Assembly: GCF_000003815.2 (NCBI RefSeq)
Contig: NC_049993.1
Location: forward strand, 4,078,891 to 4,142,890
Source: Branchiostoma floridae
Lineage: Eukaryota; Chordata; Leptocardii; Amphioxiformes; Branchiostomatidae
Length of the DNA stretch: 64,000 bases
Direction of reading: 5' to 3'
Position numbers and translations under genes: made by a program. Shown here in pieces: positions 23,356-54,967 of the stretch (position 1 is its first letter; every line of letters begins with the position of its first letter). The notes below the pieces were generated by a model. The model did not search any database, was not told the origin of the DNA, and saw only the letters and a list, made by a program, of their open reading frames with translations.

Positions 23356-25457
23356 TCATCATCATCATCGGCGTCAGCTCGTGACCGAGCATTAGTTCAT
23401 GTCCATCCAGTCTCATTTGCTAATTGTTGGTGGCGGTGTCTGAGGTGGCTGCTCAGTCCCAGGGCAGTGTGGAACAGTCTGGGACACTTTGTGCAGGGCA
23501 GAGTGGGTGGGGAGCGAGGAAGTAGTAGTCTCTCTTTGCGTTGTTGTCTTTTTGTCTCGGCTTCGGAGCGTCGTAACTGCTCCATGTGATCTGTCCCCTG
23601 CGTTATGGTGCGTCTCCACTCAGACCGGTTCTCCGCGAGAGTCTCCCAATTAGTGTGGTCAATGTCGCAACGAAGGAGGGTAGCCTTTAACTGGTCGCGA
23701 AACCGACGCTTGGGCGCTCCTCGCAACCTTGTGCCGGATTCTAGTTGGGAGTATAGGATCTGGCGAGGAAGTCGAGTTGTAGGCATTCTTTTGACGTGTC
23801 CTGCCCAGCGGAGACGATGTCGCGCCATCGTAGTCTCAATGCTGGGGAGCTTGGCCTGGAGAAGGACAGCTTCGTTGGAGACACGGTCTTGCCATTTTAT
23901 CTTCAGAATGGCACGGAGTTTTTGCTGTTGGAAACGCTCCAGCTTTTTCACATCTCTCCGATACAGGACCCACACCTCGCAGCCATATAGGAGGGTAGAC
24001 AGGACAATGGCTTGGAAAACCATGATCTTTGTTTGAAGACTGAGGTCATGGTTTAGGAAGACACGTTTGGAGAGCCTCCCGAAAGCTGCATGTGCAGCCC
24101 GAATCCTATTGTCAATGTCTTTCTGCATCGTACAGTCATCTGAGAGGAAGCTTCCCAAGTAGGGGAATGATTTCACTGTCTCTAGTACTTCACCTCGGAG
24201 TCGGATGTTACTAGTGTCAGGAGGAGGATGCCCCGGAGCTCCCTGTGCGAGGATCTTTGTCTTCCCTATGTTGGAAGTGAGACCGAAGCGGGAGTAAGCA
24301 CCGTCAAGGACATCGACAGTACTCTGAAGAGCGTCGACTGTATCCACAGGAGTTGCGTTGTCATCAGCGTACTGCAGCTCCCGTACCGTGAAGGAAGTGG
24401 TGTGTCTGCGGGAGCGAAGGCGTCCGGTGTTGAAGAGGCCTCCATCCATTCTATAACGAAGTTGGATACCGGAGGCGTTGTCGGGGAGCTCGTGGATCAT
24501 GGCCCCAAGGTAAAGGGAGAAGAGGGTTGGCGCCAGAACACAGCCCTGCTTCAGGCCAGTAGTGATGGCAAATGGCTCAGACATAGTGTTCTTTACAGCC
24601 ACACGACCAGTCATCCCATCATGGAGGGCTTGCACAAGGTCTGTGAAGTGGTCAGGACAGCCAAAACGCCTCAGGGTTGCCCACATAGCTGGTCTTGGGA
24701 CGCTGTCAAATGCCTTCTCCAGGTCCCAGAAGACCAAGAAGAGTGGTTGTCGCTGTTCGCGGGATTTTTCCTGAAGTAGGCGGGCACAGAAAATCATGTC
24801 TGTGGTACCACGAGATGGTCGGAAACCGCACTGTGACTCAGGAAGGACTTCTTCGGCAACAGTAAGGAGCCTGTCTAGCAGAATCCGTGCGAAAATCTTT
24901 CCAGCAATGCTCAGGAGAGAGATACCGCGGTAGTTTCCGCAGATGGAGCGGTCCCCCTTCTTAAAGATGGTGATGATGGTGGCATCCTTCAGGTCCGCAG
25001 GTACAACCTTCGTCTCCCACATGCGCAGGATCAGGATGAATAGCCTTGTCTGTACAGCTATGCCCCCATGAGAGATGAGCTCCAGTGGAATGCTGTCAGG
25101 ACCTGGGGCCTTCCATGCTTTCATGCGGTTCAACGCCTTCTGGAACTCAGCATAAGATGGGGGAAGAGACATCCACTGCCTAACATCGTGTTGAGGTACC
25201 TTACGGAGCAAGTCTTCAGCCGCAGACGATGGGCGGTTTAGGAGTGTCTGAAAATGTTCTCTCCACCTGTTAAGGATGGCTTGGTCGTCAGTAAGGGCTG
25301 TCATTCCGTCTGCAGTCAGGAGGTTGTTCGTACCTCCTCGACGAGGGCCCGTAAGTTTCCCTTTGTTGCTGCATAGAAGCGCCGGAGATCTCTGTTGTCT
25401 GCATAGGACTGGATCTCCTCCAAAAATAGATTTATCATAACTCACAAGCTTTTCAGA
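23356..25457 (-). mobile_element. 5'-truncated non-LTR retrotransposon with intact RT frame
   Basis: The element reads on the minus strand from about 25457 to a 3' (GAT)n tail at about 23357-23372. The borders are set by comparison with the empty homologous site near 1290. It lacks an endonuclease and a 5' end. The open frame inside is uninterrupted, so insertion is fairly young. Confidence 0.85.
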
Positions 25458-25460
25458 CAA
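23397..25460 (-). CDS. Reverse transcriptase ORF of a LINE (C-terminal part)
   Basis: This 687-codon frame encodes a non-LTR reverse transcriptase. Visible in order: a WREHFQTLLNRPS thumb-side motif, KAPGPDSIPLELI, IFKKGDRSICGNYRGISLL, LPESQCGFRPSRGTTDMIF, FWDLEKAFDSVPR (catalytic Asp), LKQGCVLAPTLFSLYL, LQYADDN (the catalytic YADD), then a C-terminal CTKCPRLFHTALGLSSHLRH zinc finger (C-x2-C-x12-H-x4-H). It copies element RNA at a nicked target. The endonuclease domain is absent because of 5' truncation; the first few residues may be read from flanking DNA. Clade not assigned. It is not a host gene. Confidence 0.92.
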   Translation of the reverse strand: MSEKLVSYDKSIFGGDPVLCRQQRSPALLCSNKGKLTGPRRGGTNNLLTADGMTALTDDQAILNRWREHFQTLLNRPSSAAEDLLRKVPQHDVRQWMSLPPSYAEFQKALNRMKAWKAPGPDSIPLELISHGGIAVQTRLFILILRMWETKVVPADLKDATIITIFKKGDRSICGNYRGISLLSIAGKIFARILLDRLLTVAEEVLPESQCGFRPSRGTTDMIFCARLLQEKSREQRQPLFLVFWDLEKAFDSVPRPAMWATLRRFGCPDHFTDLVQALHDGMTGRVAVKNTMSEPFAITTGLKQGCVLAPTLFSLYLGAMIHELPDNASGIQLRYRMDGGLFNTGRLRSRRHTTSFTVRELQYADDNATPVDTVDALQSTVDVLDGAYSRFGLTSNIGKTKILAQGAPGHPPPDTSNIRLRGEVLETVKSFPYLGSFLSDDCTMQKDIDNRIRAAHAAFGRLSKRVFLNHDLSLQTKIMVFQAIVLSTLLYGCEVWVLYRRDVKKLERFQQQKLRAILKIKWQDRVSNEAVLLQAKLPSIETTMARHRLRWAGHVKRMPTTRLPRQILYSQLESGTRLRGAPKRRFRDQLKATLLRCDIDHTNWETLAENRSEWRRTITQGTDHMEQLRRSEAETKRQQRKERLLLPRSPPTLPCTKCPRLFHTALGLSSHLRHRHQQLANETGWT

Positions 25461-25861: not shown

Positions 25862-28272
25862 CTACCAAGGACCCGGGCGGGAGAAAAAGCGGAACTTCCG
25901 TGTGCCAAACTGGAGAGAGATCCGTACGGCCGCTTTAATGTGACGAAGAACTGCACTATTGTGGTCGCCAATCCGCTGGATTGGTCAGTACAGTCGGCAT
26001 ATCTGCTGACAATCCGCAGTGGAGTCCACAACACGAGAGTCAAGGTAGAGTTGAGTGACGTTGAGGGCTATCCTCCTGTGTATAACGGGACGTGTGAAAC
26101 TCCGGTCAACACTGACGGACAGACGGGAGATTTACTACACAGTGTAACTACATCATGGGAACTCGTGACGACAATCGGAGATGTTTTCTTTAGCAGTGGG
26201 ACACGCAGCAAAGTCGGCGATGCTACAAAGTATTCTCCTTGGATGGCTCACACGGACAACAGCGACTGTAACATTCGCTTAATTTGGTACACTTCTCACA
26301 TTCCCGAATTGGCAGATTTGATATATGCATAGTACAAGGGTTTCCGTCAACTAACATGTATTGAAAGTTCAAATTCTGGACATGCGAATAAAACCAATGG
26401 GCTGCCCAGTTGGAAAATACGGCCTATTTTGCCACAAAACCTGCATCTGTAAGAACGGCGCCCGCTGCCACGGCTTTAACGGTGCCTGCAAATGTCCGCC
26501 CGGCTGGAAAGGTGTGGCTTCTGACATTCCCAAACAGGACGTCTCCGTCACGACGACACCTAGCGACCCTCGCGATATCTACATTTCGGCAAATGTCATC
26601 TTTCATTGCAAGGCAAACAATGTCGCCGTTCAATACATGTCGTTTACATTTCCAAGTGCGACAGAGAAACTAAGCTTTGGTGAAAATGAGATTAACTTTG
26701 TGGTTCCGAACATACAATCAACCAACAGTGGACCCTACACCTGCCAGGTCCGAGACACCCGGGGAAACACACTCAACACCACGTTTGTGCTCAATGTTAC
26801 CAACTGTGCTCCAGACACAAAAGGTGCCCGGTGTGATGAAGTGTGTGGTTGTCTACAACGTGCCAGCTGTGACCGCTGGGCTGGTTGTGTCTGTCCGCCG
26901 GGATGGACAGGAACCAGGTGTCAGACCACACGGTCAAGACTGTAGCTGTCAAAACGGGGCGAGCTGTAGCTCTAGCGACGGTAAGTGTAATTGCATCGAC
27001 GGGTGGTACGGAAGGAATTGTAACAAACCGTGTAAAGACGGTCGGTTCGGTTGGAGATGTCAGCAGGTTTGTGCCTGTAAGAACAATGCCACATGTAGCA
27101 ACGTGGACGGCAGCTGCGCATGTGTGACGCCGTGGACGGGGCCGGACTGTGACCAATGGCAGACAAGCTCAAGTGAACCGCTGCTCGAAATCCTGGTTTC
27201 ACTGGGCTCCTTAGTCTTACTTGTTGCCGTAGCGATGGCAATACTCTACAAAATGGGCATTCTGGCTTGCTCCGCACCTGACACAGGCGAGGAGGATAAG
27301 ATACTTTTCGAGTTGAGGAGAATGGAGCAGGATCTAGCACAGAGTCTACAGCCGGGATGGCTGGGACGTTGGGAGAAGAAGATCAAACATGTTTCTTCTG
27401 GTCCCCTGATAGGATTAGGAGAGTTTGGGCAAGTCAGAAGGGCGCAACTTCGCACATCTGAGGGAGAGCTTGCCGTTGCCGCTAAGACAGTTCGCGTCGA
27501 GGACTCACAGTCCTACCGAGACTTCTACAGAGAAGCAGCCATTTTGGTAGCTGTGCACAAAGAACGAGATGGCGATTATCGTGAGTCCAACATTGTTCGA
27601 CTCGTGGGGCTCATCACCAAGTCTGCGGTGAAGTACATTCTTCTGGAATATGCACCCAAAGGTGACCTCTTGAGTGTTCTATGCCGAATAAGAATCACTA
27701 CTGAAGAAGACAAACTTGGAAACCTTCTTGGATACGCAGTCCACATAGCACGAGCTCTACAAGAGCTGGAACGCTTGAGAATCGCCCATCGTGACGTGGC
27801 TGCTCGCAACGTCCTCATCACTGCCGATGACGTGGCCAAGTTGGCTGACTTTGGACTGGCCAGAGATGTCTACGCCACTACTCAGTATGTCCGATGCAAC
27901 CGACCAGGCGTTGACGAACTTCTTCCGCTGAAGTGGATGGCGCTGGAGTCCATCGAGACCGGCGAGTACACCTGTCAGAGTGACGTCTGGTCCTTCGGCG
28001 TGCTACTGTGGGAGATCGCCACGCTGGGGAAAGATCCGTGCTATGATGGCAGGATGCAGCTGAGCTTTCTTCAGATGGTGGGGATTCTGAGGCAAGGAAT
28101 ACGGTTGGAGAGGCCGCCGGGATGTCCATAGGACCTGTACCGACTGATGAGGTCGTGTTGGCGCGACGTTCCAGATACCAGACCGACTCCAGAAGGGATA
28201 GAAGAGAGGCTGCTGCAACTGAGACGTGCACTGCTTCCACATGACGTCATTGAAATGGAGACTGTGGTGTAG
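25862..28272 (+). pseudogene. Intronless receptor tyrosine kinase, damaged
   Basis: Reading order: an unrecognised N-terminal domain (25862-26329), an EGF unit, an Ig-like domain (about 26520-26800, C at HCKA and YTCQV), three EGF units, a membrane helix (about 27180-27255), and a tyrosine kinase domain (from about 27390). Kinase motifs seen are the Gly loop GLGEFGQV, the VAAKTV lysine, HRDVAARN, DFGLA and LPLKWMALES. Three lesions are visible: stops in all frames between 26330 and 26363; a frame change near 26925 between the second and third EGF units; and a TAG at 28129-28131, after which the same frame continues with the conserved CWRDVPDTRPT segment to TAG 28272. No introns are needed over 2.4 kb, which suggests a retrocopy, but no poly(A) tail or target-site duplication is seen. 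Product, if any, would be a secreted or truncated receptor. Assembly errors could explain one lesion, hardly all three. Confidence 0.8.
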
Positions 28273-29222: not shown

Positions 29223-32005
29223 TGTGCATACATTTGTTATATGCCTTAGCTTACATTACTCTTGCAGTGGGGAAAGGGTGCTGCGCCGTGATTGTTTGTT
29301 TGTTTGTTGTTTTTTTCTGACGTCACGGTCTGCCATAACCGGAATTTCTGCAGATTGATGATGCCATCTCTCGAGGCCACAGTCCGGTTCAAATGTTTTC
29401 CGGCCTGTTGTGAAAAACATTCCCTCCCTCTAGGCTTCAAAAATGGACACTCTCAACTGAAATCGTATTTGTCTACATCTATATTTTTGTATAAGCACAT
29501 TATGATTAAGTGATAGTATGTATGCTATAGATTTAGAGGTAGCCTAGATGATCAATTGTTTTGTTTTCTTCTGTTCACTAATAACACTTCAGGTTTTGTC
29601 TCTTATTTTACATTTAGTTATTAATACAATAGTAAAACTAACCCTATGTTAGAATATAAAGGTAGATCATCAATTTATTTAGATGAAAGTTGCTAAGAAA
29701 TTTAGTTCTAAAGAAATAACAGTTTGCAAGAAAATTTCATATAAAAATTTGGAGATATAAAACATATTTATGAGACGTATTACACTTTGTATCCTTCCAC
29801 CATTGTCCTTTCTGAAGGTCAGCAAAAAGAGTAAAAACCACAAGTGAACATTCAAACAGCCAGCTTCAGACAATCAACAGAAGTTAACCATATCATATGA
29901 TCACAGTAATTTAAATATGTTTGTTACGCACTGTAAGGGAACAACTGCTGAAGTACTCCCCAAGCAGAGGGTCGGCTTTGCCTGTTTATTATGTGTTTTT
30001 ATGATAGGCGTTTTTTCTGGCTTACTTTACGTCTGCCGGTCTCCTTTGACTGCTTTGTCTCCCCTTGTTTATTACTAATGCTACATACATTGATTTTTTT
30101 CTTTGATTTTATTGTAGAACGACTGCATGTAGGACCATGTAAGGAAAGATCATAAAATTATTTCGACGGGAGTGACTATAGGGTATAAAAGAACCGTTTA
30201 GTCCAGAAATAGGCATATGAACGTTTCTGGAAGAAGTTTTGCAATGCCCAAAAACGAGTAAACAACCTCAATATTAATATTCATTCTGCCAGCTTCAGAC
30301 AATTAACACAACCATGTCGCAAAGACCACAGTAATTTTACTGCTTGTTACACACTTTTCCAGTAAAGATTTATTTTAAAATCCTCAAACACCCGAGTGGG
30401 GTCCATTTGGACCCCAGGCGTACATTTTGAAGTGCCATTTGAACATTTTTGATCTGAAGAAAACATCCTTCCGTGACTTTGTCAGTCAGTATGTCTTATA
30501 CCTTCTCCTAAGTTTTCGCAAAGATTGGTACAATAATGTGGAAATTATAAAGAAAGTTTGTGTTCAGTCCCTCTGGGGTCGAAACGGACCCCAGCAAAAA
30601 TGTGCAAACTTTGGAGGCTAACTCCTTAACTACTTATAGTATGAATACCAAACTTTCAGATAATAATAGGAAGGTAAACCTCAATCTTAACAAAAAATTC
30701 TGTGTCATCAACATGGAATGTGACGACATTATGATGTCATTTACCTAATCAGGGCGGCCATCTTGAATTTTTACCAATGACGTCATGAAATTAGCATAAA
30801 TTAAAAATTTCAAGTCATGAAAATTACATTGCATTTCATAGAATTTAATTGTTGTCAGAAAACAGGTGTAGTTTACCAAGAAAACCTTGTTTAAATTGAA
30901 ATTGTCAAATTTTGGCAAAAATATGCCTGTTAGAATATGAATACCATGGCAACCCCAAAAAATGATAAACTTGCATTTTTGACCTAAAACTTTTGGGAAC
31001 AATATTTTGTGATAAATTACCAAGTTTCGTAGCTTTAGCTCTAGCCGTTCATGAGTTATGCGACATAAATGTTGCTGAGGTCCTCAAAATTGCCCTATCT
31101 GGTCGGAATAGGTTTAGTGCAAAACGTGGTCCTTCTGAAATTTTGCATAAATTATGATAATGAGTTGGAATTAGCAACACCTTAACATCTCAAAATCTTC
31201 CTCTTACATTGACAAAGCAATGTTTATACAATGATCGCCGATAAGAAATGGTACTGAGATTTTATGAACAAAACATTTTGGTCATTTTAGTCGCCAAGAA
31301 AGGTCGGGTGCTTGAGGGTTAACCCTATCTAGACCGGCCTTTTTGGGGATTCCTGGGGCCGAGGGGGGGGGTCTCTTTTGCCCCCCCCCCCCTTCGTGAT
31401 TTCAAAACGGCTTGGGTTACGATCACTAAATTTTGGAGCTTGAATTTTATGAAATACGTTTCTTTTCTACATATAACATCAAAACCCAATAGAAGTGGAC
31501 TAAAAAGGTTCAAGTGATTGTATTTTGTAAGAAAATAAAATGAATTTTCGTAAAAAATAACATGTATTGATAATGACATTGTACGCCATCTTTGATTTTG
31601 ATCCATGACGTAATCAAATTAGCATAAATTATGAATATATAATTAGAAATTACATGGGATGTTAATGATATAGATAGGTGTGGTCTAGCAATAAAACCAT
31701 GAAATCCCATAATTCAAACTGAAATTAGTAAATTTGGTAAAATATGCCTGTGAGGAACCTGTTGCCAAGGCAACGCGAAAAATCACAATTTCATTTTTTT
31801 TCGCAGAATTGTTGCCAACAATATTTCAGGAAAAGTCACAAAGTTTGGTAGTCCTAGCACACGTCGTTCGGCTGTTATACGATGTCAAAGTTGGCGCAGG
31901 CACTTTGAGGGTTAAAGTAAACATCAAATTGCGAGATATTGACGAGGTTAGCTTTTTAACAGACGACGTTCCTGTTCTGTTCAGGTAGAAGACCTAAAGA
32001 ACACC
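29223..32005. repeat. Intergenic, repeat-rich
   Basis: Holds two further GCCAGCTTCAGACAAT copies (about 29859 and 30289) and two related long repeats (about 30750-31310 and 31560-31915). These share a GCCATCTTGA/TGATTT-ATGACGT-A segment, AAATTAGCATAAATTA, AAATATGCCTGT, a CATGGCAAC/CAAGGCAAC segment, AACAATATTT and GAGGGTTAA ends. Motifs TGGGGTCCATTTGGACCCCA (30399) and GGGGTCGAAACGGACCCC (30576) are short palindromes. I see no gene. Confidence 0.65.
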
Positions 32006-33402
32006 ATGGGGAAAAATCTGCGACACGTGCTCATCTTTCTTCTCATCCTCTGGAATGAGTCCAACGTGTCAGAAACTTTCTGTGAAGACAAGCGTGATTT
32101 CACCAGCGTCCCTCAGAATATCACATACGGCAACCCCTTATCTTTACATAACTTGATAGCAAAAATTCAGCCCCACACACTTGTTAAGACATGGGGAGTA
32201 AATAAGCTGGACCTGTTCTCCAACCACATAACAAATATTCCGGCAGGTACATTTGCACATGTACAGCTATACAATCTCCAACTTTTGTGCTTGGCCCGCA
32301 ACAGGATAACAATGATTCAGAATGGCACATTTGCAGGTCTACACCGGCTAAGAATGTTAAACATGGCCCATAACAGGATAACAAGGATCGAGCCTGGTGC
32401 GTTTGCAGAGTTACCCCAGCTCTTTGAAATCAACCTATCATTCAATCAGATAATAACGATTCAGGCAGGTACATTTGCAGGCCCACCCATTCTCGGAAAG
32501 TTATCGATGAAAAACAACAAAATAGCTAAGATCGACCCTGGTGTGTTTGCAGAGTTACCACAGCTACAAGTACTGATCCTATCCTCAAACCAGATAACAA
32601 TGATTCAAACTAGCACATTTGCAGAGTTGCCGGAGCTCTTTACGTTGGACCTAGACTCCAACCAGATAACAATGATTCGAACTGGAACATTTGCAGATCT
32701 TCCCAGCCTCAGATGGGTGTATCTGAAATCCAATAAGATAACAGAGATTCAGCCCTGTGCATTTGTCAATGTACCCAAGCTACGAGAGGTTAAAGTAGAC
32801 AACAACCAGTTAACAATGATTCAAACTGGCACATTTGCAGACCTTCCCAGCCTCAGATGGGTGTATCTGCAATCCAATAAGATAACAGAGATTCAGCCCT
32901 GTGCATTTGTCAATGTACCCAAGCTACGAAAGGTTAGACTAGACCACAACCAGTTAACACTGATTCGAACTGGAACATTTGCAGACTTACACAGCCTCGA
33001 ATGGTTGCATCTGGAGGTCAATAAGATAACAGAGATTCAGCCCTGTGCATTTGTAAATCTACCACGAGAGGTTAACGTATACGTAGACGACAAGCAGATG
33101 CTGGAAGGATCGATATGCGAAGGAGGAACCATATCAACACAGTCTGTTGATATCCAAACCTCCTTCCAGTCATCTTTAGTTTCAACATCTTCTCCGTTTG
33201 GCAGCACATTAATCAATGCTGGCCCAACAGCGCGCCCTGAAGCCTCCACATCTGCCACACAGTCCCTAATTGATCCAATGCAAAGTGCTAACAACAGTTA
33301 CAATGGCACCGGCACCTCTCGCTATCACTGGTACTTCAAGCGCGATTTTGGTTCTGCAGGCAATACAAGCCAAGCTAGAGCAATAACACCTTCCCTCCTT
33401 GC
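32006..33402 (+). CDS. LRR receptor, ectodomain part (12 LRRs)
   Basis: ATG 32006 has a strong context (ACCATGG). A signal peptide (HVLIFLLILW core) is followed by a cysteine-poor N-cap and 12 leucine-rich repeats of 24 residues with the pattern L-x2-L-x-L-x2-N-x-I-T-x-I-x2-G-x-F. Repeats 7-12 are three near-identical 48-residue pairs, encoded by 144-bp units starting at 32663, 32807 and 32951. A Ser/Thr-rich stalk follows (about 33120-33400). The frame runs on into a transposon-like element at 33403 and stops at 33526; that last part is probably not original. The membrane segment and tail lie in the next open frame (34190-35648). Function: extracellular recognition, ligand unknown. There is no TIR or death domain. 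Confidence 0.85.
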
Positions 33403-34189
33403 AATGGACCGATCCCGGAGCCCCGCCCCCTGTTCGATCATGTTCTATTTCGAACACCTCCGTCAAAAACAGCGCTTGTCGGACAGAACTGGCCGCCGCC
33501 GCTGTTTGGTTGATAATAACGACTGACTTCGGTTTAGCTCCTTTGACCCTGAAATCCTCTCAGACCAAGCCGAAAAAAATGCGCTGACTTCTTTGTTGAA
33601 GGCTACATGCACTGGGTACAATCATCTGAGGAGGGGGCTGATATAGTTGTGGTACGGGCGTCATAATTTCAGTCAAAGCGGAAGCGGGAGGCACCGCATA
33701 TCTTTACCTTGTTGGTGGACAGAAGTGTCCGGTTTCTGACGTACGTCGATGCAGGTGAAAAACAGGGTACATCTATCTGTGACTGAGTTTCTACTGCGTT
33801 TGTTGCATGCATAACAGCTGCATGTATGCTCATGATACAAGCGAAATCAAGAAGAAAGCAGCTCAGGCACTCGTGGAGGGGGAGCTTGTACTACGCACCA
33901 AATAATGGCACACTTCTACAAAGTCTACCAGTGCAGATTCCCGTGTCTTATACATACCCTGCACTACACGTGCATCCTGCCCACCACCAATGTAATGCTA
34001 TGCAGTGGCTCTCGCTCCCACAATACCTATACTCGGTGGGTGTAGTCTTCGACAAAGAATAGCATAGCATATTTCCTTGGCCATTTCTGTTCAACTGGGG
34101 CTGTTTTTGACGGAGGTGTTCGAAATAGAATAGGGGGTTCCATGTTGTTCTATTTGTTCGATATGACGTTCGATCGGGATCGGTCCATT
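33403..34189. mobile_element. 787-bp inverted-repeat element between LRR and membrane exons
   Basis: The ends are AATGGACCGATCC at 33403 and its inverse GGATCGGTCCATT at 34177-34189. Within the first and last 100 bases a second inverted match is seen: TCTATTTCGAACACCTCCGT then CAAAAACAGC. There is no transposase frame. A target-site duplication was not found. Removing exactly 33403-34189 joins the LRR frame to the membrane/tail frame without a stop. Confidence 0.7.
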
Positions 34190-35648
34190 ACTTCAGACAA
34201 ACCAGAAATCCGCAGTTCTCATGAATTATCTCCCAATTTACCCAATTTACCACAGATTTACCACAGATAGAGGCAATGTTCTCATTGCCTCTATCTGTGG
34301 TTCAATAGCTGGCATTATCCTGATTGGCGCCATCATTCTCACTATCTGGTGCAAGAGGAGGACCAGCCATCCTCCTTTGGGACTAAAAAATGTTTCTGTA
34401 ATGGTAAGTGGCCAGAATGACTATGAAAACAAGGATCATGATCAGACAGGGCAGGGCCAGTCTCAGGCCATTACTGAATCCAACACAAACAGCGCAGCTG
34501 CTGTAATTACCAGTGGTCATTATCACCAGTATGAAGATAAAGACAAACAACACAGCCATACAAGTCAGGGCCAGTCTAAGGCCATCACTGAATCCAACAC
34601 AAACACCACAGTTAGTGCAGTGCTCAGTGGTCATGATCACCAGTATGAAGATGTAGACAAACAACATACTCAGATAGGGCAGGGCCAGTCTCAGGCCACC
34701 ACTAAGTTAAACACAAACACCACAGCTGCTGTGGTAAGCAGTGGCCATGATCAACAGTATGAAGATATAGACAAACAACGTGAACAGGCAGGGCAGGGTC
34801 AGTCTCCGGCCATCACTGAATCCAACACAAACACCACAGCTGCTGTAGTAACCAGTGGCCATGATCACCAGTATGAAGATATGGCCCCGCAACACAATCA
34901 GACAGGGCAGGACCAGTCTCAGGCCATCACTAAATCCAACACAAACCCCAAAGCTACAGTAGTGGCCAGTGGTCATGATCACCAGTATAAAAACATGGAC
35001 AGCCAGACAGGGCAGGATAATCCTCAGGCCATCACTAACTCCTTTGATGCTAGAAATCTATCATATGGCTCAGGGCCGACTGCCTCGCAGCTTAATTCCT
35101 TGTACACAAACACCACAGCTGTTGTGGAAGCTAGTAGTTATGATCAGGCAGGGCAGGGCCAGTCTCAGGCTGTCACTGAATCCTTGGATACTGGTAATAT
35201 ATCTTATGGCACAGGGCCGACTGCCTCACAGCTCAACTCCTTGTACAACGTTGAGAGCCAGTATCAGGCCAGTATCAGGACCAGCAGTCATAGTCAGACA
35301 AGGCAGGGCCAGTCTCAGGCTATCATTGAGTCCAACCCAAACACTACAGCTGTTGTAGTGACCAGTGGTAATGATCAGACAGGGCAGGGCCAGTCTCAGG
35401 CCATCACTGAATCCAACCCAAGCACTACAGCTGCTGTAGTGACCAGTGGTCATGATCAAACAGGGCAGGGCCAGTCTCAGGCATTCACTGGGTCATTTGA
35501 TGTCAGGTCGTGTGGCGTGACGGCAGGTTGTTTGGCCCAGAACTCAGAGGTCCTGGGTTCAAATCCTCAAGGCACTTTGCAGGACGTCTCTCCCTTCACT
35601 AATGTGAAAATGAGTACCTATCTCCGTATCAGGCCGTCCCTCGAATAG
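34190..35648 (+). CDS. LRR receptor, membrane segment and repeat cytoplasmic tail
   Basis: A hydrophobic helix (NVLIASICGSIAGIILIGAI, then ILTIW) ends in the stop-transfer CKRR at about 34365. The tail is made of five 38-residue repeats (34446-35006) with consensus SGHDHQYED-D-Q then TGQGQSQAITESNTNTTAAVV, followed by shorter degenerate copies to about 35490. The repeat tyrosines read YEDK, YEDV, YEDI, YEDM and YKNM; YENK precedes the array and YTNT follows it. YxxM and YxN are known SH2-docking patterns (PI3K p85 and Grb2), so phosphotyrosine signalling is possible, by inference. The last 45 residues come from a tRNA-type SINE. It is probably one gene with the LRR part, joined by splicing or by the ancestral frame. 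Confidence 0.8.
34261..34300. repeat. Perfect 18-bp inverted repeat inside the membrane-exon coding sequence
   Basis: Arms 34261-34278 (CCACAGATAGAGGCAATG) and 34283-34300 are exact reverse complements around TTCT. The 5' arm overlaps a CCACAG that could serve as a splice acceptor. Confidence 0.9.
34446..35490 (+). repeat. 114-bp minisatellite coding the receptor tail
   Basis: Five 114-bp units (the last slightly shorter) and shorter variants sharing CAGGGCAGGGCCAGTCTCAG. All lengths are multiples of 3, so copy-number change keeps the frame. Confidence 0.9.
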
Positions 35649-37789: not shown

Positions 37790-38458
37790 TCTAATTCTTT
37801 AGTCATATAAGGTAGTAGTCATATAAAAAGCATTTCCATATATTGGAACTTATTCTTGTGCAATACGCTTTGACCTGACTTGTATTTTGAAACATTCACC
37901 ATGTTAAAATAAATCCCCATCATCATTATTAATGTTGATATAATTTGAATGGCCAGCTTCAGACAATCAGCCCCGCCCTGTAGGTAAGACTAATCCCGGG
38001 TCGTTTACCACTCGGCATTACGGACCAGCTACTGAAAGATGCACTACTAAAATACTACTATTACTACTACTGAAAGATGCACCCTACATGTTCACAACAA
38101 CAGCCTAAACCACTGCTTAAAAAAAGCTAGCATTTTGCCCAAGTTTGCGAGTGTGAACGTTTTTTTTTCTAGTTATTGGAATTTGCTGTAGGCAGTCATT
38201 CGTTAACACGTCGAAATTGCGACACCTCTTGCCATCATACAAAGACTCCCTTGGGACTAAATGTAACACTCCCTTGAGACAATATGGTGATGCCCAAGGA
38301 CGCTAACGAAGCCAATACAGGTTTGTCTATTGCAAACCTGTAACAATATGATCAGCTACCACCCTACATGTACACAACAACAGCGTGAGCCATTCTACAC
38401 GAGCTCCAGACCAGAACGTGTCTGAGTGGTTTGAAAGGTAAGTTTCTGTCGGTGGATA
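37790..38458 (+). repeat. 5' region of kinase copy 2
   Basis: Homologous to 28820-29222 (see that entry). The shared end, TTTGAAAG|GTAAGT at about 38440, looks like an untranslated first exon with a donor. Between the shared pieces is extra DNA (about 38045-38380) not found at the other copy. Confidence 0.7.
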
Positions 38459-38477
38459 AACTTTGAAGGTAAATCTG

Positions 38478-39116
38478 TCACGTTTGTGCTCAATGTTACC
38501 AGCTGTGCTCCAGGCAAAGAAGGAGCAAATTGTAGCAAACCGTGTCCAATCGGTCGGTTCGGTTGTACATCAAGTTTGTACCTGTAAGAACAATGCTACA
38601 TGTGACGACGTGGATGGCAGCTGCGCATGTATGACGCCATGGTTGGGACCGGACTGTGATCAATGGCAGACAAGCAGAGATGAACCGCTGCTAGAAAGTC
38701 TGGTCCCACTGGGCTCCTTAGTCTTACTTGTTGCCATAGTGATGGCAGTTCTCTACAAAACGGGCTTTTTGGCTTGCTCCGTGCCCGACACAGGCGAGGA
38801 AGACAAGATACTTTTCGAGCTGAGGAGAATGGAGCAGGATCTAGCACAGAGTCTACAGCCGGGATGGCTGGGACGTTGGGAGAAGAAGATCAAACATCTT
38901 ACTCCTGGTGCCCTGATAGGAGAAGGAATGTTTGGACTAGTCAGAAAAGGAAAACTGCGCACGTCTAAGGGAGAGCTCGCCGTTGCCGCCAAGACAGTTC
39001 GCGTCGAGAACTCACAGTCCTACCGAGACTTCTACAGAGAAGCAGCCATTTTGATAGCTGTGCACCAACAACGAGATGGCGATTGTCGTGATTCCAACAT
39101 TGTTCGACTTGCGTAG
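38478..39116 (+). pseudogene. Truncated second copy of the receptor tyrosine kinase
   Basis: It starts at the homologue of 26784 (ACGTTTGTGCTCAATGTTACC), then skips most of the EGF units to join at the homologue of 27024 (GTAGCAAACCGTGT). It then matches copy 1 through the last EGF, membrane helix, juxtamembrane (EEDKILFELRRMEQDLAQSL) and kinase N-lobe (GEGMFGLV, VAAKTV). Homology ends right after NIVRL at about 39110, and TAG 39114-39116 ends the frame. The C-lobe, HRD and DFG motifs are absent, so it cannot be a kinase. The juxtamembrane DNA is nearly identical between the copies. Confidence 0.85.
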
Positions 39117-41109: not shown

Positions 41110-41306
41110 NNNNNNNNNNNNNNNNNNNNNNNNNNNNNNNNNNNNNNNNNNNNNNNNNNNNNNNNNNNNNNNNNNNNNNNNNNNNNNNNNNNNNNNNNNN
41201 NNNNNNNNNNNNNNNNNNNNNNNNNNNNNNNNNNNNNNNNNNNNNNNNNNNNNNNNNNNNNNNNNNNNNNNNNNNNNNNNNNNNNNNNNNNNNNNNNNNN
41301 NNNNNN
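41110..41306. other. Assembly gap (197 N)
   Basis: A run of 197 N. The non-round size suggests a length estimated from paired reads. Confidence 0.98.
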
Positions 41307-45872: not shown

Positions 45873-48800
45873 ATGGGCATAAAGTCCGTCCGGAAACCCG
45901 AACCTAGCCTTGAGGGCCGCTGGCTTTGGACTGTGTTTCTTTTGGTTGGCCTTGCACAGACGGTAACAGGTACGTGACTGTAGCCTCTACCAGGCTCCGT
46001 GAATCGGTAGAATTATTATCCTCACCTCGTGGTGAGTAAACGTACTCTTCTGGCCGGCTAACTCCCTTAGCGTACTATAGACTCTATTTGTGCAATTTCT
46101 ACAATTAGACCACCGATCCACGAAGCCTGGTAGAGGCTAACGTGACTGTACAGTACAGTACTTTTTTTGCTCCGTGTGACTGAGCTTACAATTAATTGCT
46201 ACTTTGGTTAACTACACACGGCCACATGTAAATGTGCCCCACACCATACAGATTATATTTCAATCCTAGACCAAATAGACAAGTATGAGAGATACAGAAC
46301 GAAGCCGACCATGCATCCAGACATTCTATTTTTCTATCCTAGTCTACCTGAGTAACATAATTGTAGACTCGGACTCGGCGTTCGTATACGTAGCTGCCTT
46401 ATCGTAGAAACGTTTGCCGCATGAATCATTTCAAAATTTTCCTCATTACTTAAAAATCTTTGTTAAGTTTTTTTTTTAGATAATAACTTACTCCTGACTT
46501 TAGTGGCTTTAGGGAAGCCTTTGTATGACGTTGTCTCTTTTAGCATTAAGGCAAGCAATGGCGGGACAATATTTAGTTTTCATGCTCGGTTGCGTTCACC
46601 CGTTTAGATAGGCAACAACGCGTGGCAACGTTACGGGGTGATCTTGGGCCACTTCGATCTATTGTGACACTATATTCTAGATGTTTCTTAATGTAAACCA
46701 ATACTGGAGTCCCAAATGATTTGCTTTTCAAAGCCGATTCACAAGGTATTTCCGTTTTTTTCAGGTGTAGTAGACGTCACCATCGTCAGTAAGTACCAGT
46801 TCTTTGATGAGCCAGCGGACACCTGGCTGTACTGTTACTACACGGGGAGTCTCATCAACCATCAGAACGGGTACCAGTTCGGTGTAGAGGTCAACACTGG
46901 CTCAGGAACGGTGTTTACATCACGGAGAGGCACCGGCGAGATATCAGGGCGCTATAATGTGAGAATCTATGGTGACGCTGGTGACTTCCGGGTCGGGGCA
47001 TTCTCCTGTCGAGTAAGGACCCCTGACAATAGTCAAACCGAAAAGGCCATCACCTTCAAAATGAAGTCACAGGGTGAGTACACAACTTGTTGCCGATTAT
47101 ATGTGCATAAGAGAGCCATGATTCATGTATTCATCTACTGCTGGAATGCACTTATGAGTCAACAGCCGTCAGATAGAGAAAGACGTATCAATATTCATAC
47201 TTACATCCTCCTTCCAGCCGATGTCTGGCCCGTGACCTTCACAGTGACCGCCAACACAGGTGACCCCGTGACCCTACAGATGGTGCAGAAGTCCAACAGA
47301 ACCGGTACCCTGGTGTGGAGGAAGGGCGGGGTCGGGGGGACTGTCCTGACTGGACAGAACGGTCTCAACTTCACCATGGCCAGTGTCCGGGCTTCAGATG
47401 AGGGGATCTATGAGTGCTACTATCAGGGGGATACTGATAGAAAACAGGGCATCATGAGGCTCATTGTAAGAGGTATCTTAACGTTATACCATTTATCTTC
47501 CGATGTAAAAACAAGGTAATATTTTTGCATGCACAAAGTTAATACTTCTTTTGGTAACACTAAGCGTAATTCCTGTATTACTGTTAATTCCTGTATTACT
47601 GTGATATCATTCACGTTTTCAAGCTGTACAAATCGTGATCACTGAACTTCTACTTGCTTCATTAATGCTGCATATCATTTAATGCACAGATACCTTTTCC
47701 CTCATGCTGAACACCACCCACCCACACAAGCAAAGAAATTTCAACTTGGACATTTGCCCTTCCTTGCTGATCAACAAAGCACACACGCAGGTAAACACAT
47801 CTACGTATTCTGTTTGACAGGTTGCACTGAGAACAAGTGGGGTCCGCCCTCCTGTACCGGTGACTGTCCTGTGTGCTACAACGGCGGTGTGTGTGACGAC
47901 AACAGCGGGGAATGTGTGTGTCCTCCGGGCTTCCATGGACAAAACTGTGAAAGTGGTAAGATATAGTGATGTGTGCAACTAGACCTAAAACAGTGTCTGT
48001 ATGTATAACAGATTTGGGAGAATCCCTGCGTTAAAGAAGGAATGCTAAAAACTAGTAAAAGTAAAGGCTTAATTATTTGTCACACAAGACACTGTTCATT
48101 CTTTCGAAGCCTGTGCGAACAACCAGATCGGTACCAGCTGCACGAGAGAGTGTGAGGGTGGAGACTGTACAGGCCAGCTGTTGTGTGTGATGGACCCGTA
48201 CGGCTGCTCCTGTGCTCCTGGACTCATGGGGATAGAGTGTAACACAGGTGAGTACACATTAAGACAGACTTTATTTCATTCCAACCTTCAGTAGTGTCAT
48301 AAAAATGAAATGAAACAAAATTTGAATGAAAAGGCAATGGTGGACAATTTTACACTCAAATGCCGGAACATTAAACACAATGGAAAAGTCAAACGTGTCC
48401 AGGGCCTGTACATTTCAAATGAAATGCATCAGTTCGAATCCCTACTTCAGGTTGTCCAGACGGCATGTACGGAGCAGGCTGCACCCAAACCTGTCACTGT
48501 GCCAGTGGAGGTTCCGTGTGTGACGTCATGACTGGTGCCTGCTCTAGTGGAGGGTGTGAGGCTGGGTGGGAGGGGAGCAACTGTCAGACAGGTGATTGTA
48601 CTCCGTGCCAAACGGCAATTGTACTCTGTGGTTTCCTTAGTGATGTGTCCGTCCATATATCGAACAATCAAGGTAAAGTTATTCTAAAGATATCTAAGTA
48701 TCTATCCAAGGTATCTAAGTATCTATCTCAGGATCTATCCAAGGCTTCTCGAGTTATGCTGTTGACATGGAATCATGATATTTTCTCATTAATCATGCAA

Positions 48801-51800
48801 ATGAGTTCGTTAGTTGCATGATTAATATCTACTGACATTTCTCTCTTTCTTTACATATGTGACAAGTTTAAAGTTCTATCATGGAATGCAGTAGATTTAT
48901 AAATTGTCCCCATTAATTTTGCAAATTAGCTGTTGATCTGCTACTCAAAAATCACGACCGCAGCATGTTCAGAACAGCATTTATGAAAAAGGGAAGTTTA
49001 GAGGGCCCATTACCGAACTTGACCTTTGTTTTCCTGACCCCTACCCACCTACCAAATATCATCAGTATCCATCCAAGGCTCACGTTATGCTGTTAACAGA
49101 CAAACACAACAAAATGGCAAAAAAACCTTGAATAAACTTCTCATAAAGCATCTATTGATAAAATAAACACCTAGGGGCAATGATCCATTCTACCTTTGTG
49201 CCAAGTTTCAGGTCTTTTGACCCCGGAACGACAGAGATCTTTCCGCTTAAAGATTTCGATAGTAGAAGAAGAAGATGCAGAAACATTACGAATACAATAT
49301 ATTACCCATACCTGTGGTATGTGTGAAATAAGTACGAAAAGAGTATTTAATTACGCCTAGGCCTATTGAAAACTAAACTCAGTATCACCAGTATCAAGTA
49401 CATTGTCTATCTGTAAGTAATATAAAAAAATCGTTTAATTATCACGGAAGGTAAACATACTATTTTTGCTCAGTTTCCTCTTCTTCTCCAAACGAATAAG
49501 GTCAACGACCTGGGCCAGACAGCTGTCACCATGGTTACTGGTAAAGTAGAAGCCACCCTATCTTCACTGCGCGCTCATTGGCATATTCTGAATCACATGA
49601 TTCTCACTACCATAAAAACAAGATGCAAGAAAAATTGATGTGAAAAATTTGCTACTACGTTTTGTATCAATCAATTTACTAAATGAAAAAAAATATATAA
49701 AGTTATAGTCATTGCTTATTGTTTGATTGCGTACATCGTGTTCTGCGATTTTAATGAGGATATTCTATAATTTTCCTCCTGCAGAATGTGATGACGGTTA
49801 TTACGGTAACGACTGCGGGGAAAGTTGTGGAAACTGTGTGACAGGGACGGTTTGTGACAAAACCAACGGCAACTGTCCCGGGTGTGAGGAACCTTGGGTC
49901 GGAGACACCTGCAAAATGAGTATGTAAACCTTCATTTTTCATTGCTGAATGATATACAGATACATGTAGGTGCACGTGCACTGTTGCTCAAGCAGGATTG
50001 ACCGATCATCAGTTCCTTTTCTCAATAGAGAGTGCTTGAATAGTAGAGTTATACTTTTCAATTTATTTTTTATTTTTTTATTTATTCACATATATTTTGC
50101 GAGTATGAGGCGGAAAGCACAAATTGCTTATATTAAGCCTTCTACTCAAGAAACATACGTATAAAACATGAATAGTAAACGACATTACATACATAAGTAC
50201 AAAATGGATAACAGAAAAATAAATTTAAACAAGACAAGTTGGTGCTGAATCAATTAGGAGAACCTGCCTGTACAATGGATATAGGTAATGACAAGATCAA
50301 AAATGTTACAGTTCTGTTGATGTGAGAGAGATGTTGATCCTGATAACAGTAAAGTACATAAATTAGTGTCGTTGAGGTGCTTTAGGTCTACTATAATATT
50401 TGAGACAGCCGATAACAAAGAACTTCTTTGGCTAGTATAGAGTGTGCAGTGTAGTAGATAATGTTCGGTTGTTTCACAATGATAGCCGCATTTACATGTA
50501 GGATAATCAATACAATGGTGTTGAAATAGATGGTAGTTTAACTGACTGAAGTTTAGACGGAGCCTTGTAAGATGAACTGCGGAACGACCTTGGCCATGAG
50601 AGAAATGGGAGTATTTTGTCGGCTTGTTGAATAGTGAGTCCAGCTCTTTTTTGAAAGTGTTGATCGAAAGGACGGCTTTAGCATTCGTAGGCAGTTCATT
50701 CCACAAGTGAACAGTTGAAGGTAGGAAGGATCTTTTATACTTTTCAGTTTTACAGGCAATGGAAGTAAGGTTTTGGTTTGCGCGAAGGTTGTAGGGGACC
50801 GTATCACAGATACGTGGAGGGATAATATTATGTAAGTACAGTGGTGCGAGACCATTCATAATTTTCCAAAACTGAATCAACTGGTGCTTTTTCCTTCTGT
50901 CCGCTAGTGTGTCCCATGCAACCTCGGCTAACAAGCTCTCATGTTTAGTGCCTCTCATGGCTCCGGTACAAACTCGTGCCGCGGCCATCTGGACAGACTC
51001 AAGAAGATCACAATCTTTGCCGAGAAGGCCACACCAAACAATGTCAGCTCAATTCTAATATGAGATAAAAAAACAATCAATGCACGTGTATTGTTGGTGA
51101 AAGGTATTGCATCAGATGCACTTTATACGCTTGTTCTGATACATGTATAGACATGAGATATGGCCTGTATCATTCCAGTACCTGCAACAGTTTCAGAAGG
51201 TCCAGAAAGCGTAACTCTAGTTGTCGAGAATGACACAACGTTCAGCTGCACCGGTCGCGGTGTTCCTGGCCCTAGTGTCGTCTGGTATCATGGCGAAGAA
51301 ATCATCACACCTGGAAACGGGATCAGGATAGACGTTACAGATGGCGGTCTGGTGGGAGAACAACACGTGATCCACAGCACCTTAACCATTACGTCAGTAC
51401 GTCGACAACATAACGGGAAGTACGTCTGTATCTCCTCTAACGTGGCGGGGCACGAGACGTCACAAGAAGCTACACTCGTGGTGCAAGGTACGAGATCGAT
51501 GTAGTTTATGCAGTAATGAAAGCGGTAAAATTTCCATTTCTGTATCTTGCCAGCCTCCCCTATATGTGTTCAAATATCTACACTCTCTACGTTCTGTTTG
51601 CAGAACGTCCTGATGACGTGACAGTAAACGTCACCGCCGTGAACTCTACAACCCTACACGTCACGTGGATAGTAGGTGAAACCGGTAACCTCGACATCCT
51701 CGACTCCCAGGTACGCTACAAACGGAGCGACACGGAGGACTGGGGAGACTGGGAGTCTACTGGAGTTTCTGGTGCGAAGGGTGATGTCTACATTCATAGC

Positions 51801-51997
51801 TTACAGCTGGCCGTCATGTACGATGTTCAAGTGCGGGTGCACAACTTGCTGGGATGGAGCGATCCTGGTAGTGGTCGGATGGGAACTACAGACGAAACAG
51901 GTATTAAAGATATAGAAAATTGAAATACTTTTGAAAACTGTTGTGTTCTGGTGCGTTTCATTTCTTTGCTACGCTAATGCATTATTACTTATATTTA

Positions 51998-52080
<83 letters not shown>

Positions 52081-54967
52081 GAGAGAGAGATGGAAATAGA
52101 TATGCATACAAATAATGACGATCCGTGGTAAAGCGTTATAGTGCTATATATCCTATTTCCAATGCAGAACCGGTATCGCTGTTGCCTACCAGGCCACCTC
52201 TGGGCGCTACTGCAACATCTTTTCCCAAAACTCGGTACATGGAGCCTGTGACTGCAGAGGCCATAATCAAGGGTTAGGCCACACTGTACTTAACTTCATG
52301 GATGACATCACCCTCACACTCAGGGTTGACAATCGCGGCAAAGCCTAGCGATATCACCCCTGACAACTCAGCCACAGAATTCAGTTATTAGGGCGCCTTG
52401 CTTATGAATATTAATGAGCTTGCCCTTATATGGGCAGTCAGCCGTTGGGGATTGGGCGTAGGAGGATGGAGCCATGTAATACGTAACATGATTGGCTGAT
52501 AGCTTCCCAGCGGCCTTTGCGAGACAGCTTGCGACAACAAAAAGCCCAAGAAAAGCCTATTCTATGATTGGTTGACAGCTGGTTTGTGGCGAAAATCATA
52601 ATAACCACTGATAGGGCATGAAATAGCAGGGCCCCATAGGCTAATGCCGTTGGGGACCGGGCGTTAGGAGGATGGGATGACATCTGCGCGCATTGATTTT
52701 CGCCTGTCCTCAATAAAACTGTGGCCACATGTTACCCAATAGCATATCTGTCCAATCAGAATTTTACGCTTGCTAAAGACTTTGCTCTCCAGTGTAAGGG
52801 GGCACATGGTCAGGGCATGGCGCCACAGCGCCCTTGATCCACTCTTTAAACAAGAATGGCCATAAAAACATTATAATTGAAATGCAATGACTGTCTCTTA
52901 CTGGAGGTGAATATATGACTAACAAAACTTGGGAAAGAATAGACTGGATGTTTAGTCCTGTGGTTTAGCAGCATTTTTTTTTTATTTTGCTGGATTTTTT
53001 CGCCCTCGCGATTTAGTTTTGGGGTCCTCAGAGGATGCCATACATAGAATTAAGTCAGTGTGGTCTTAATTGATTAAGACCCATTGTCTGGGTGCCATTC
53101 AATTACTACCGGGGCTCCCTACCCTCTCTATCTTGATTTTTTCGTCATTCTGATGATTCATTTCAATATGAAAATAGCTCACATTGTTGTCTAAATTTTG
53201 TAGGTCCACCCGAAAGTGTTAGTGTCGCCTCCATCATTGGTGGTAGCGTTGGGGCTGCCCTGCTGGTCGTCGTTCTGTTGACAGTCGGCATAATATGCTA
53301 CAGGTAACTAAAGCCCGTATTAACAGAAAACGTGATCCATCAAAATGTAATCATGAAGCGCTGAAATTCTTTTAAGTAAAATCTGTGATGTTGTTATTTT
53401 TAGCAAGATGTCTGCTCCAGCTGCTTCAGAAAAAGAACACCTATTTGCTGGCTTGTATTTTTCATTACTTTCATTGATAGCGTTTGTGTGTTTGGACCTC
53501 ATACTGTCAACTTAAGTAGCTACTTCAACTGACGCCCAAACCAATTATGTCTTAAAGAAGGAGACACGCTGCTGAGCGACAGGACCCCATAGGCGGTCAA
53601 ATAGACCTGAACATGATCAAAACTGACGATCCCTCCGACAGTGCATCAGCTGAGAATCCTACATGTACAGAATTGCATGAATACAATTCGCCTTATGAAA
53701 CGGTAACCTTTTATTCGGTGTTTTCCTATACAGACTACATTATACTGGTTTTACTGGTTGTACTGTACGTATCTACTAAATCGTTGTTGGTACATGAGTT
53801 CGATACGTAACGTTATCATTCTAATTCTGCATTGATGTCTTTACGACGCTAAGTACTTCTTTGTTGTATCTCCTTCTTATACAGATCTATCCCTCTGTAT
53901 TTCCGAAAATTTACCTTTATCACGTTTTAATTCACTCTTTTGATGTAGCCGATTTACAACATCACAGACCTTGTAACTGTGGATGACGTAGTGGAATTCC
54001 TAAAGGCCAAGGGCTTTGGCCAGTACGCTGCAGCATTTAAGAGTAAGTTAAGTTCCACGTACAACTCTTATTTCTTTGCAACCTTAACGAGGAAAAAACT
54101 TGATACAACAATGATACAACTGCTTCAGCTATATCAGTAGGTGAATTTGATGATGCCCATTTGATCCTCTTGGTAGGTTTTGCCTGCTTGCGAAAGTTTG
54201 CTAAGTTTCTTGTTAATTAGACATCTTATTGCTCAGGGCACAAAATAGACGGAGTTGCCGTAATGTACCTGAACGACGCTGTGCTTGCTGAGCTCGTCCC
54301 TGAGATCGGGCCGAGGGTAAAACTACAGAAAGCCCTGCAAGAGCTGAAGGACAACCAGGTTTGCCTCATTTTACCTCATCAAGCATATTTATTTTCAATA
54401 CATGTTATCTTTTTCACGTAATATTAGTAATATGACCTCATCTGTGTACCAACGCTGCCGTCATTTCCATGGTAGTTAATTTAACAACATTGTCATTTCA
54501 AAATAAAGGCCAGGAAGTGACACAACACCACAATGCATTGCAATGTATACACTGTAGCAGAGGTATGCACCTATTCCCTTCAAAACTGCAAGAAACCTTG
54601 CACAGAAAACTAATCTACTATATACTCTGAGGAAACTGTCAAATGGCCTCAACTGGGAAGCCAGGCTGATACTGAACACAAAAGCATTGAACAGCTGTCT
54701 GTGCCCATCTGTTGGTTGGAAGATCACAATTTTTATACATGCTTATGTGATGCAATGATGTCGCAGCATCTCCCCCAGAATATTGGTATGTAATGCTATA
54801 GGGTTGATTGAACTAACAATGTAAAGAAAAAGTAGGAAAAGGTACTTTTTTGTTTCGTTCAAATCTTACGTATCATACATTTAAAAGGCAATCAACGGAA
54901 GTCTTAGTGCAGAGATCAATGTATTATTTCTTTACTTTTGCAGACATACACCTCACTGCTGAACTAA
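45873..54967 (+). CDS. Kinase-less Tie-like receptor with intracellular SAM domain
   Basis: Fourteen exons join in phase: 45873-45969, 46765-47073, 47218-47472, 47821-47955, 48110-48247, 48451-48591, 49785-49919, 51179-51487, 51604-51900, 53204-53303, 53558-53702, 53949-54042, 54237-54358, 54944-54967. Total 2301 nt, 766 residues. Order: signal peptide (WTVFLLVGLAQTVTG), two Ig-like domains, four EGF units, one Ig, one FN3, membrane helix (VGAALLVVVLLTVGIICY) with a basic stop-transfer, a short tail, a SAM domain, stop TAA. Ectodomain order and the EGF style match vertebrate Tie1/Tie2 (Ig-Ig-EGFx3-Ig-FN3x3), except for one extra EGF and two fewer FN3. No kinase exon fits between helix and stop, and there is no N gap there. 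It is likely a surface receptor or decoy that acts through SAM-mediated assembly. The start of exon 11 is the least certain: acceptors at 53557 and 53563 both keep phase. Confidence 0.88.
46765..51900 (+). CDS. Tie-like/SAM gene, ectodomain exons 2-9
   Basis: Every exon here starts and ends in phase 1 and encodes one module. Exon 2: Ig-like (WLYCYY to FSCRV). Exon 3: Ig-like (GIYECYYQG). Exons 4-7: EGF units, the first reading CTENKWGPPSCTGDCPVCYN then GGVCDDNSGECVCPPGFHG, the closest to Tie; the second contains PYGCSCAPGLMGIEC, again a Tie-like signature. Exon 8: Ig with TFSCTGRG and KYVCISS. Exon 9: FN3 (TLHVTWIV, YDVQVRVHNLLGWSDPG). Several N-glycosylation sequons (NRT, NFT, NDT, NVT, NST) are present. 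Confidence 0.88.
50060..51058 (-). mobile_element. 5'-truncated CR1/jockey-like LINE 3' end
   Basis: The minus-strand frame 50988-50254 encodes the C-terminal part of a non-LTR ORF2 (WDTLADRRKKHQLIQFWKIM, NGLAPLYL, PSTVHLWNELP, and C-x-C-x3-C-x3-H-x4-H-C near the end). Frames just upstream (to about 51045) add DIVWCGLLGKDCDLLESVQ, also typical. The 3' end is an A-rich tail at about 50062-50095. It sits in the intron between EGF 4 and Ig 3 of the Tie-like/SAM gene, in antisense. Confidence 0.85.
51999..52076. repeat. (TA)39 microsatellite
   Basis: A pure TA run of 78 bases followed by (GA)n, in the intron between FN3 and membrane exons. Its length in the assembly may be unreliable. Confidence 0.97.
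52438..52680 (-). repeat. Non-autonomous element, copy 2 (partner at 14.35-14.60 kb)
   Basis: Reverse-oriented copy of the 14352-14600 unit, with direct terminal copies of GCCGTTGGGGA--GGGCGT and AGGAGGATGG. Both copies sit in introns of receptor genes. Confidence 0.8.
53204..54967 (+). CDS. Tie-like/SAM gene, membrane and SAM exons 10-14
   Basis: Exon 10 encodes the membrane helix. Exon 11 encodes a roughly 48-residue polar tail with tyrosines in LHEYNSPYET, continued by PIYNITD from exon 12. Exons 12 and 13 encode one SAM domain split at its middle: VDDVVEFLKAKGFGQYAAAF, then RHKIDGVAVMYLNDAVLAEL, then GPRVKLQKALQEL. These match the SAM core (W/FL..GL.QY...F....IDG..L..L....L..L....G.R.KL..AI..L). 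Exon 14 adds TYTSLLN and the stop. SAM domains commonly self-associate or bind other SAM proteins, as in Eph receptors. Confidence 0.88.

Follow-up and report, generated by a model that had tools for sequence, protein, structure and literature searches.

A predicted lancelet receptor that joins a partly Tie-related ectodomain to a cytoplasmic SAM domain

Tie signalling is usually seen as a matter of the vertebrate vasculature that depends on receptor clustering, and Tie receptors follow the order Ig-Ig-EGF-Ig-FN3-membrane. A sequence-only reading of a locus on contig NC_049993.1 of the lancelet Branchiostoma floridae proposed that an ectodomain of this type is joined there to a SAM domain in place of the kinase. 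This raises the question of whether such a receptor is encoded as one gene, how much of it is of Tie type, and how a molecule of this build might act. We addressed this question in a stretch of 64,000 nucleotides around the gene (hereafter the window, to which all coordinates refer). Among the literature matches listed (titles and abstract openings), there was no description of a Tie-type ectodomain combined with a SAM domain, and in the literature searched no paper dealt with Tie, a SAM domain, a tyrosine kinase and amphioxus together, which does not amount to saying that none has been published.

Rebuilt from the window, the predicted receptor gene has 14 exons on the forward strand (45873-54967) and a coding length of 2301 nt, corresponding to 766 codons plus the stop codon. 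The earlier reading gave the coordinates, the number of exons, their phases and the total length exactly. Every intron is bounded by a GT donor and an AG acceptor. Exons 2-9 have phase 1 at either end; across exons 10-13 the phase shifts from exon to exon and the chain closes. The reading phase matches at all 13 junctions, an agreement that is not independent, as the splice sites were picked with phase in view. Exon 1 (45873..45969) contains the start codon and, from residue 22, a hydrophobic stretch that by hydropathy fits a signal peptide. Intron 2 (47074-47217) has a length of 144 nt, which is a multiple of three, and is open in frame, so that its retention would preserve the reading frame.

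The relation to Tie receptors was examined by comparison with 177635 distinct sequences of the PDB (E 0.01), which gave 97 matches, the best 60 of which were examined. Tie2 ectodomains are the top three of the 97 (155.7, 155.7 and 154.9 bits), the next match being Robo2 at 74.1 bits. The alignment with Tie2 (E 1.2e-44) spans residues 110-359, is gapless over the exon 2/3 junction and contains 89 identities in 242 aligned residues. Its EGF part has 60 identities in 133 residues, or 21 in 92 once cysteines and shared glycines are excluded. The aligned region includes the second Ig domain (Ig2; exon 3, 47218..47472), which corresponds to Tie2 Ig2, and three EGF domains. EGF1 (exon 4, 47821..47955), EGF2 (exon 5, 48110..48247; the motif DPYGCSC is common to both proteins) and EGF3 (exon 6, 48451..48591) each score highest with EGF1, 2 and 3 of Tie2, respectively (150, 122 and 88). 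The reciprocal best matches also hold, the third of them narrowly (88 versus 82 and 79). In 500 shuffles with the cysteines held fixed, not one attained any of the four EGF scores tested, that of EGF4 against Tie2 EGF3 included. Ig2 and EGF1-3 are, on sequence comparison, related to Tie2 and placed in the same order; the Tie-type Ig2 followed by three EGF domains that marks a Tie receptor tyrosine kinase is thus present. The fourth EGF domain (EGF4; exon 7, 49785..49919) is nearest to EGF3, with 19 of 45 residues identical, and probably arose by exon duplication.

Profile searches gave a more uneven picture of the same region. With the whole protein, the Pfam V-set profile matches over Ig2 with 26.4 bits (cut-off 26); the Ig2 exon alone scores 27.4 with Ig_3, below the cut-off of 30. 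The EGF1 exon alone passes as EGF_2 (25.7, cut-off 22.1), and the EGF2-4 exons, scanned singly, stay below the Pfam cut-offs. Exon 2 (46765..47073) is presumed to encode Ig1 from its place and two cysteines. It has no Pfam match of its own at E 10 and gave two chance-level matches only in the PDB. Its predicted structural model contains strands only, at low confidence (mean pLDDT 48.6), and only the end of this presumed Ig1 aligns with Tie2. At the other side, the Tie2 match stops before Ig3; since Ig3 and FN3 match other proteins, the Tie relation is established for the first half only. The proposed Tie-type ectodomain is therefore borne out for Ig2 and EGF1-3 only; Ig3 and FN3 carry no Tie signal, one EGF is extra, and a single Ig and a single FN3 occupy the place of the third Ig and three FN3 of Tie receptors. 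Compared with Tie1 and Tie2, the predicted receptor shares the order of Ig2 and EGF1-3, the EGF-by-EGF correspondence and the overall predicted Ig-Ig-EGF-Ig-FN3-membrane order. It differs from them by its four EGF domains, its one FN3 instead of three, the lack of a kinase, the added SAM, an Ig3 and FN3 whose sequences are not Tie-like and an Ig1 that is not recognised.

The sole strong hydrophobic helix (residues 619-637, mean hydropathy 2.56) is encoded by exon 10 (53204..53303) and followed by the stop-transfer motif RRRH in exon 11 (53558..53702); the predicted receptor would be located at the cell surface. Between the helix and the SAM lies a tail of ~50 residues with three tyrosines, Y681 (YNSP) and Y685 (YETP) in exon 11 and Y690 in exon 12 (53949..54042), and a further one, Y761, follows the SAM. 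Motifs of the YxxP type serve as docking sites for SH2 domains of Crk/Nck type. The tail tyrosines may be phosphorylated, which in a receptor without its own kinase needs a partner.

The SAM domain starts in exon 12 and is completed in exon 13 (54237..54358); exon 14 (54944..54967) adds the final seven residues, Y761 among them, and the stop. Its position downstream of the membrane helix, already recognised in the earlier reading, was confirmed by Pfam, with SAM_1 (E 8.7e-9, 36.1 bits, cut-off 23) and SAM_2 (32.3 bits, cut-off 20.5) both above their cut-offs in the whole protein and SAM_1 reaching E 9.5e-11 with the domain alone. Compared alone with the PDB, the domain gave weak matches (best E 7.9e-5) to 25 distinct sequences up to E 10, including one enzyme without a SAM. 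The leading matches are SAMD1 (Atherin), Shank2, Sfmbt, Scm and Polyhomeotic-like 3; Bicaudal C, Liprin-beta-1, Usher 1G and ANKS4B are also included. No Eph SAM occurs among the 25. This comparison does not support an Eph origin of the domain, or the likening of the SAM to that of Eph receptors; its nearest relatives are SAMD1, Shank2 and Sfmbt. The SAMs of SAMD1, Sfmbt and Bicc1 self-associate; those of Liprin-beta-1, Usher 1G and ANKS4B are, to our knowledge, not known as polymer-formers. The proximity to SAMD1, Shank2 and Sfmbt makes it more plausible that the predicted SAM may associate with itself. In the stretches that we chose, the mid-loop has three acidic residues and one basic and the end-helix three basic and two acidic, a bias that would have the right sign for mid-loop/end-helix contact but is slight. 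It is this slight combination of an acidic mid-loop with a basic end-helix that the domain has in common with its nearest solved relatives, the SAMs of SAMD1, Shank and Polycomb proteins. These proteins are cytoplasmic or nuclear and their SAMs are not receptor tails, whereas the predicted SAM sits on one. SAM domains are described as polymerising through mid-loop and end-helix surfaces; the ANKS3 SAM has a mid-loop flanked by acidic residues and that of Shank3 forms sheets (PMC4105859). Eph SAMs are described as stable monomers, three of which bind effector SAMs via the end-helix (PMC5993539). Like Eph receptors, the predicted receptor is single-pass, has an FN3 close to the membrane, carries tyrosines in its juxtamembrane part and bears a SAM at its C-terminus, but it has no ephrin-binding domain and no kinase, and its SAM is not Eph-like.

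The sequence-only reading had also claimed that the receptor lacks a kinase, and this claim was borne out, as none is present in the protein and none was found for it in the rest of the window. Neither a kinase nor an ephrin-binding domain occurs among the 16 Pfam families that the protein matches at E 0.1. The window was further searched with a two-row kinase profile against 2806 six-frame peptides of at least 15 aa, a length below which exon pieces would escape. As the profile was built partly from a kinase relic in the window (relic A, below), it matches this relic by construction (E 1.8e-139, one of its own source rows); it also matches a second relic, relic B (E 1e-23). Between 39.1 and 64 kb the search gave no kinase, the remaining listed profile matches having E 1.8 or worse; the cytoplasmic tyrosine kinase of Tie receptors is missing from the protein and was not found in this interval. 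Neither the profile nor tblastn with relic A revealed a concealed kinase exon within the gene or beyond its 3' end. The only assembly gaps in the window are at 6471-6570 and 41110-41306; with no gap after 41306, none conceals a kinase exon near the receptor gene. The claim is bounded by the window end at 64000, 9 kb past the stop.

Both relics lie upstream of the receptor gene on the same strand. Relic A (26355..28272, +) is a receptor kinase relic in which an EGF, an Ig, further EGFs and a membrane helix precede a tyrosine kinase (PF07714, E 1.9e-54). Its reading frame changes near 26940 and is interrupted by a stop at 28129-28131. Its ectodomain is Tie-like, Tie2 being the best PDB match of the first EGF-Ig-EGF part (E 2.5e-8). 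Its kinase part is nearest to EGFR, FGFR3/4 and RET in the best 60 of 2180 PDB matches; no Tie2 kinase occurs among these 60, so that the Tie type is not established for the relic A kinase. Relic B (38460..39116, +) is a truncated relative that ends inside the kinase N-lobe and has 82% identity to relic A over 181 residues. The lack of introns in both relics suggests that they are retrocopies and, by inference, that an intact parent gene is present elsewhere in the genome. In addition, a 33-base stretch at 28967 is repeated at 37954, which suggests a duplication. A partner kinase next door was considered and rejected, since, as assembled, neither the disrupted relic A nor the truncated relic B is intact; the window contains no intact partner kinase. 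Other features of this neighbourhood are a 687-aa open frame just upstream of relic A (23397-25460, -), reverse-transcriptase-like by eye, and a leucine-rich-repeat receptor-like gene followed by a repetitive tail (31952-35648). In this tail (34422-34986) a unit of ~38 codons recurs, every copy of which contains a tyrosine of the YED or YKN type, and no Pfam domain is above cut-off. No relatives were found in viral contigs, as expected for an animal gene, and this result is hence uninformative.

What kind of receptor would this be? The most likely reading, which we hold tentatively, is that of a kinase-less receptor of the Tie lineage, encoded by one gene and acting as a co-receptor or scaffold. 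The Tie ectodomain lineage would have given rise by module shuffling to a single-pass receptor composed, in order, of a signal peptide, two Ig domains, EGF1-3 with the duplicated EGF, an I-set Ig, an FN3, the membrane helix, the YxxP tail and the SAM. The ectodomain would bind a ligand or else a Tie-like receptor next to it, and the SAM would use mid-loop/end-helix contacts to join copies of the receptor to one another or to cytoplasmic SAM proteins. The tail tyrosines would then be phosphorylated by a kinase present in the cluster and would dock SH2 adaptors. This co-receptor or scaffold mechanism, its kinase partner included, is a proposal drawn from the sequence. Against it speak the lack of an intact partner kinase in the window, the weak SAM matches with their slight charge bias, the uncertain exon 11 and the replaced ligand contacts of Ig2 (the last two below). 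It is also possible, if on the unlikely side, that SAM-driven clustering replaces catalysis, extracellular binding nucleating a SAM polymer that recruits another kinase, which writes the YxxP sites.

The second half of the ectodomain invites another interpretation. Ig3 (exon 8, 51179..51487) is an I-set domain with a Pfam Ig_3 match of 63.3 bits in the whole protein (E 3.1e-17, cut-off 30), and its nearest PDB relatives, in the best 60 of 97 matches, are Robo2 and Robo1, with Robo2 Ig1 at E 6.1e-20. The single FN3 (exon 9, 51604..51900) passes as fn3 with the exon alone (E 3.3e-6, 27.6 bits, cut-off 25) and is nearest to BOC and NCAM2. Its 18 PDB matches up to E 1 include no Tie2 and two weak matches to Eph FN3 (E 0.11 and 0.73). 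These relatives, together with the presence of Shank scaffolds among the nearest SAMs, would fit an adhesion or guidance receptor in which the Tie-like part is merely a reused module and the SAM connects to scaffolds, unrelated to Tie kinases. However, the I-set and FN3 likeness to Robo, BOC and NCAM2 is generic and the strongest match of the protein is Tie2, and we regard this interpretation as doubtful.

Receptor relatives without a kinase are already known, FGFRL1 and EphA7-T1 being two such cousins. FGFRL1 is described as an FGFR ectodomain without kinase that is present in amphioxus, and it has been proposed to act as a ligand trap (PMC2754479). The kinase-less EphA7-T1 is described as binding full-length EphA7 and lowering its phosphorylation, thus dampening the full-length receptor (PMC7717530). 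With no kinase found, the predicted receptor could similarly be a decoy whose ectodomain traps a ligand or ties up a Tie-like kinase in inactive heteromers, in which case the SAM would serve only for anchoring or turnover. Like FGFRL1 and nou-darake, it retains the ectodomain of a kinase receptor and misses the kinase; these two differ from it by an FGFR-type Ig ectodomain, a tail without known structural feature and the lack of a SAM. Yet trapping would need neither a SAM nor clustered tyrosines. Moreover, the angiopoietin contacts of Tie2 Ig2, which we take to be F161, S164, R167 and H168, correspond to V, T, T and G in the predicted receptor. As these residues are not kept, the ligand may not be an angiopoietin, and a decoy seems to us unlikely.

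All these interpretations presuppose that the 14 exons would belong to a single transcript. We ranked the splice sites by a simple frequency-based score against the 3883 GTs and 3812 AGs of the window. Eight of the 13 donors and nine of the 13 acceptors fall within the top 5%. The others are the donors of exons 3 (8.3%), 7 (21.8%), 9 (12.4%), 11 (6.3%) and 13 (8.0%) and the acceptors of exons 5 (6.6%), 8 (10.6%), 11 (51.1%) and 12 (10.4%). At least one side is in the top 5% at 11 of 13 junctions, and neither at 7/8 and 11/12. The acceptor of exon 14 is in the top 0.1% of the AGs and that of exon 11 scores at their median. Among the 48 frame-keeping single-exon bridges that can link exons 10 and 12, exon 11 as modelled ranks 12th, with 11 scoring higher. 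The best-scoring alternative (53734-53764) would lose both YxxP sites, YNSP and YETP, and the second-best (53642-53702) retains them; we kept the longer form because both top alternatives lose the RRRH after the membrane helix. All 48 bridges keep the SAM exons in frame. Exon 11 is the least certain exon of the predicted model, and two tail tyrosines, Y681 and Y685, sit in it.

These mediocre junctions (7/8 and 11/12 on both sides) and the weak acceptor of exon 11 could betray two genes read as one, an upstream Tie-like gene and a downstream one encoding Ig3, FN3, membrane helix and SAM, or the SAM alone. The long introns 6, 7 and 9 (1193, 1259 and 1303 nt) would fit such a division, as would an antisense open frame of 264 aa in intron 7 (50254-51048, -) that is transposon-like by eye. 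Differences in lancelet domain order have indeed been ascribed to gene-prediction errors, which possibly also account for some apparently unique orders (PMC4967905, PMC6071037). The consistent phase in the genomic sequence, with sites chosen as stated above, partly answers this worry, but not all of it. Furthermore, there is no in-frame ATG in exons 8 and 10, so that an upstream exon is required, and the division would leave the upstream part without a kinase; we consider it improbable that two genes are involved. Very improbable is that the locus also yields a kinase-bearing isoform by means of an exon past the window end, so that the SAM form is only one of its splice products: the window does end 9 kb past the stop, but AATAAA signals follow the stop from 56242 onwards and kinase profile matches from 39.1 kb to the window end are no better than E 1.8.

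The gene model is coherent and its domain order unusual; the function given to the predicted receptor is inferred. If true, a lancelet Tie-type ectodomain on a SAM tail would mean that this ectodomain was a portable module outside vertebrates, and nature would thereby have provided a way to test if receptors that carry no kinase themselves can signal by clustering. The predicted receptor would join FGFRL1 as a kinase-less cousin of receptor tyrosine kinases, but one with a recognisable interaction domain inside the cell. Should the interpretation of SAM-driven clustering prove true, signalling by assembly would substitute for catalysis in a receptor tyrosine kinase lineage.
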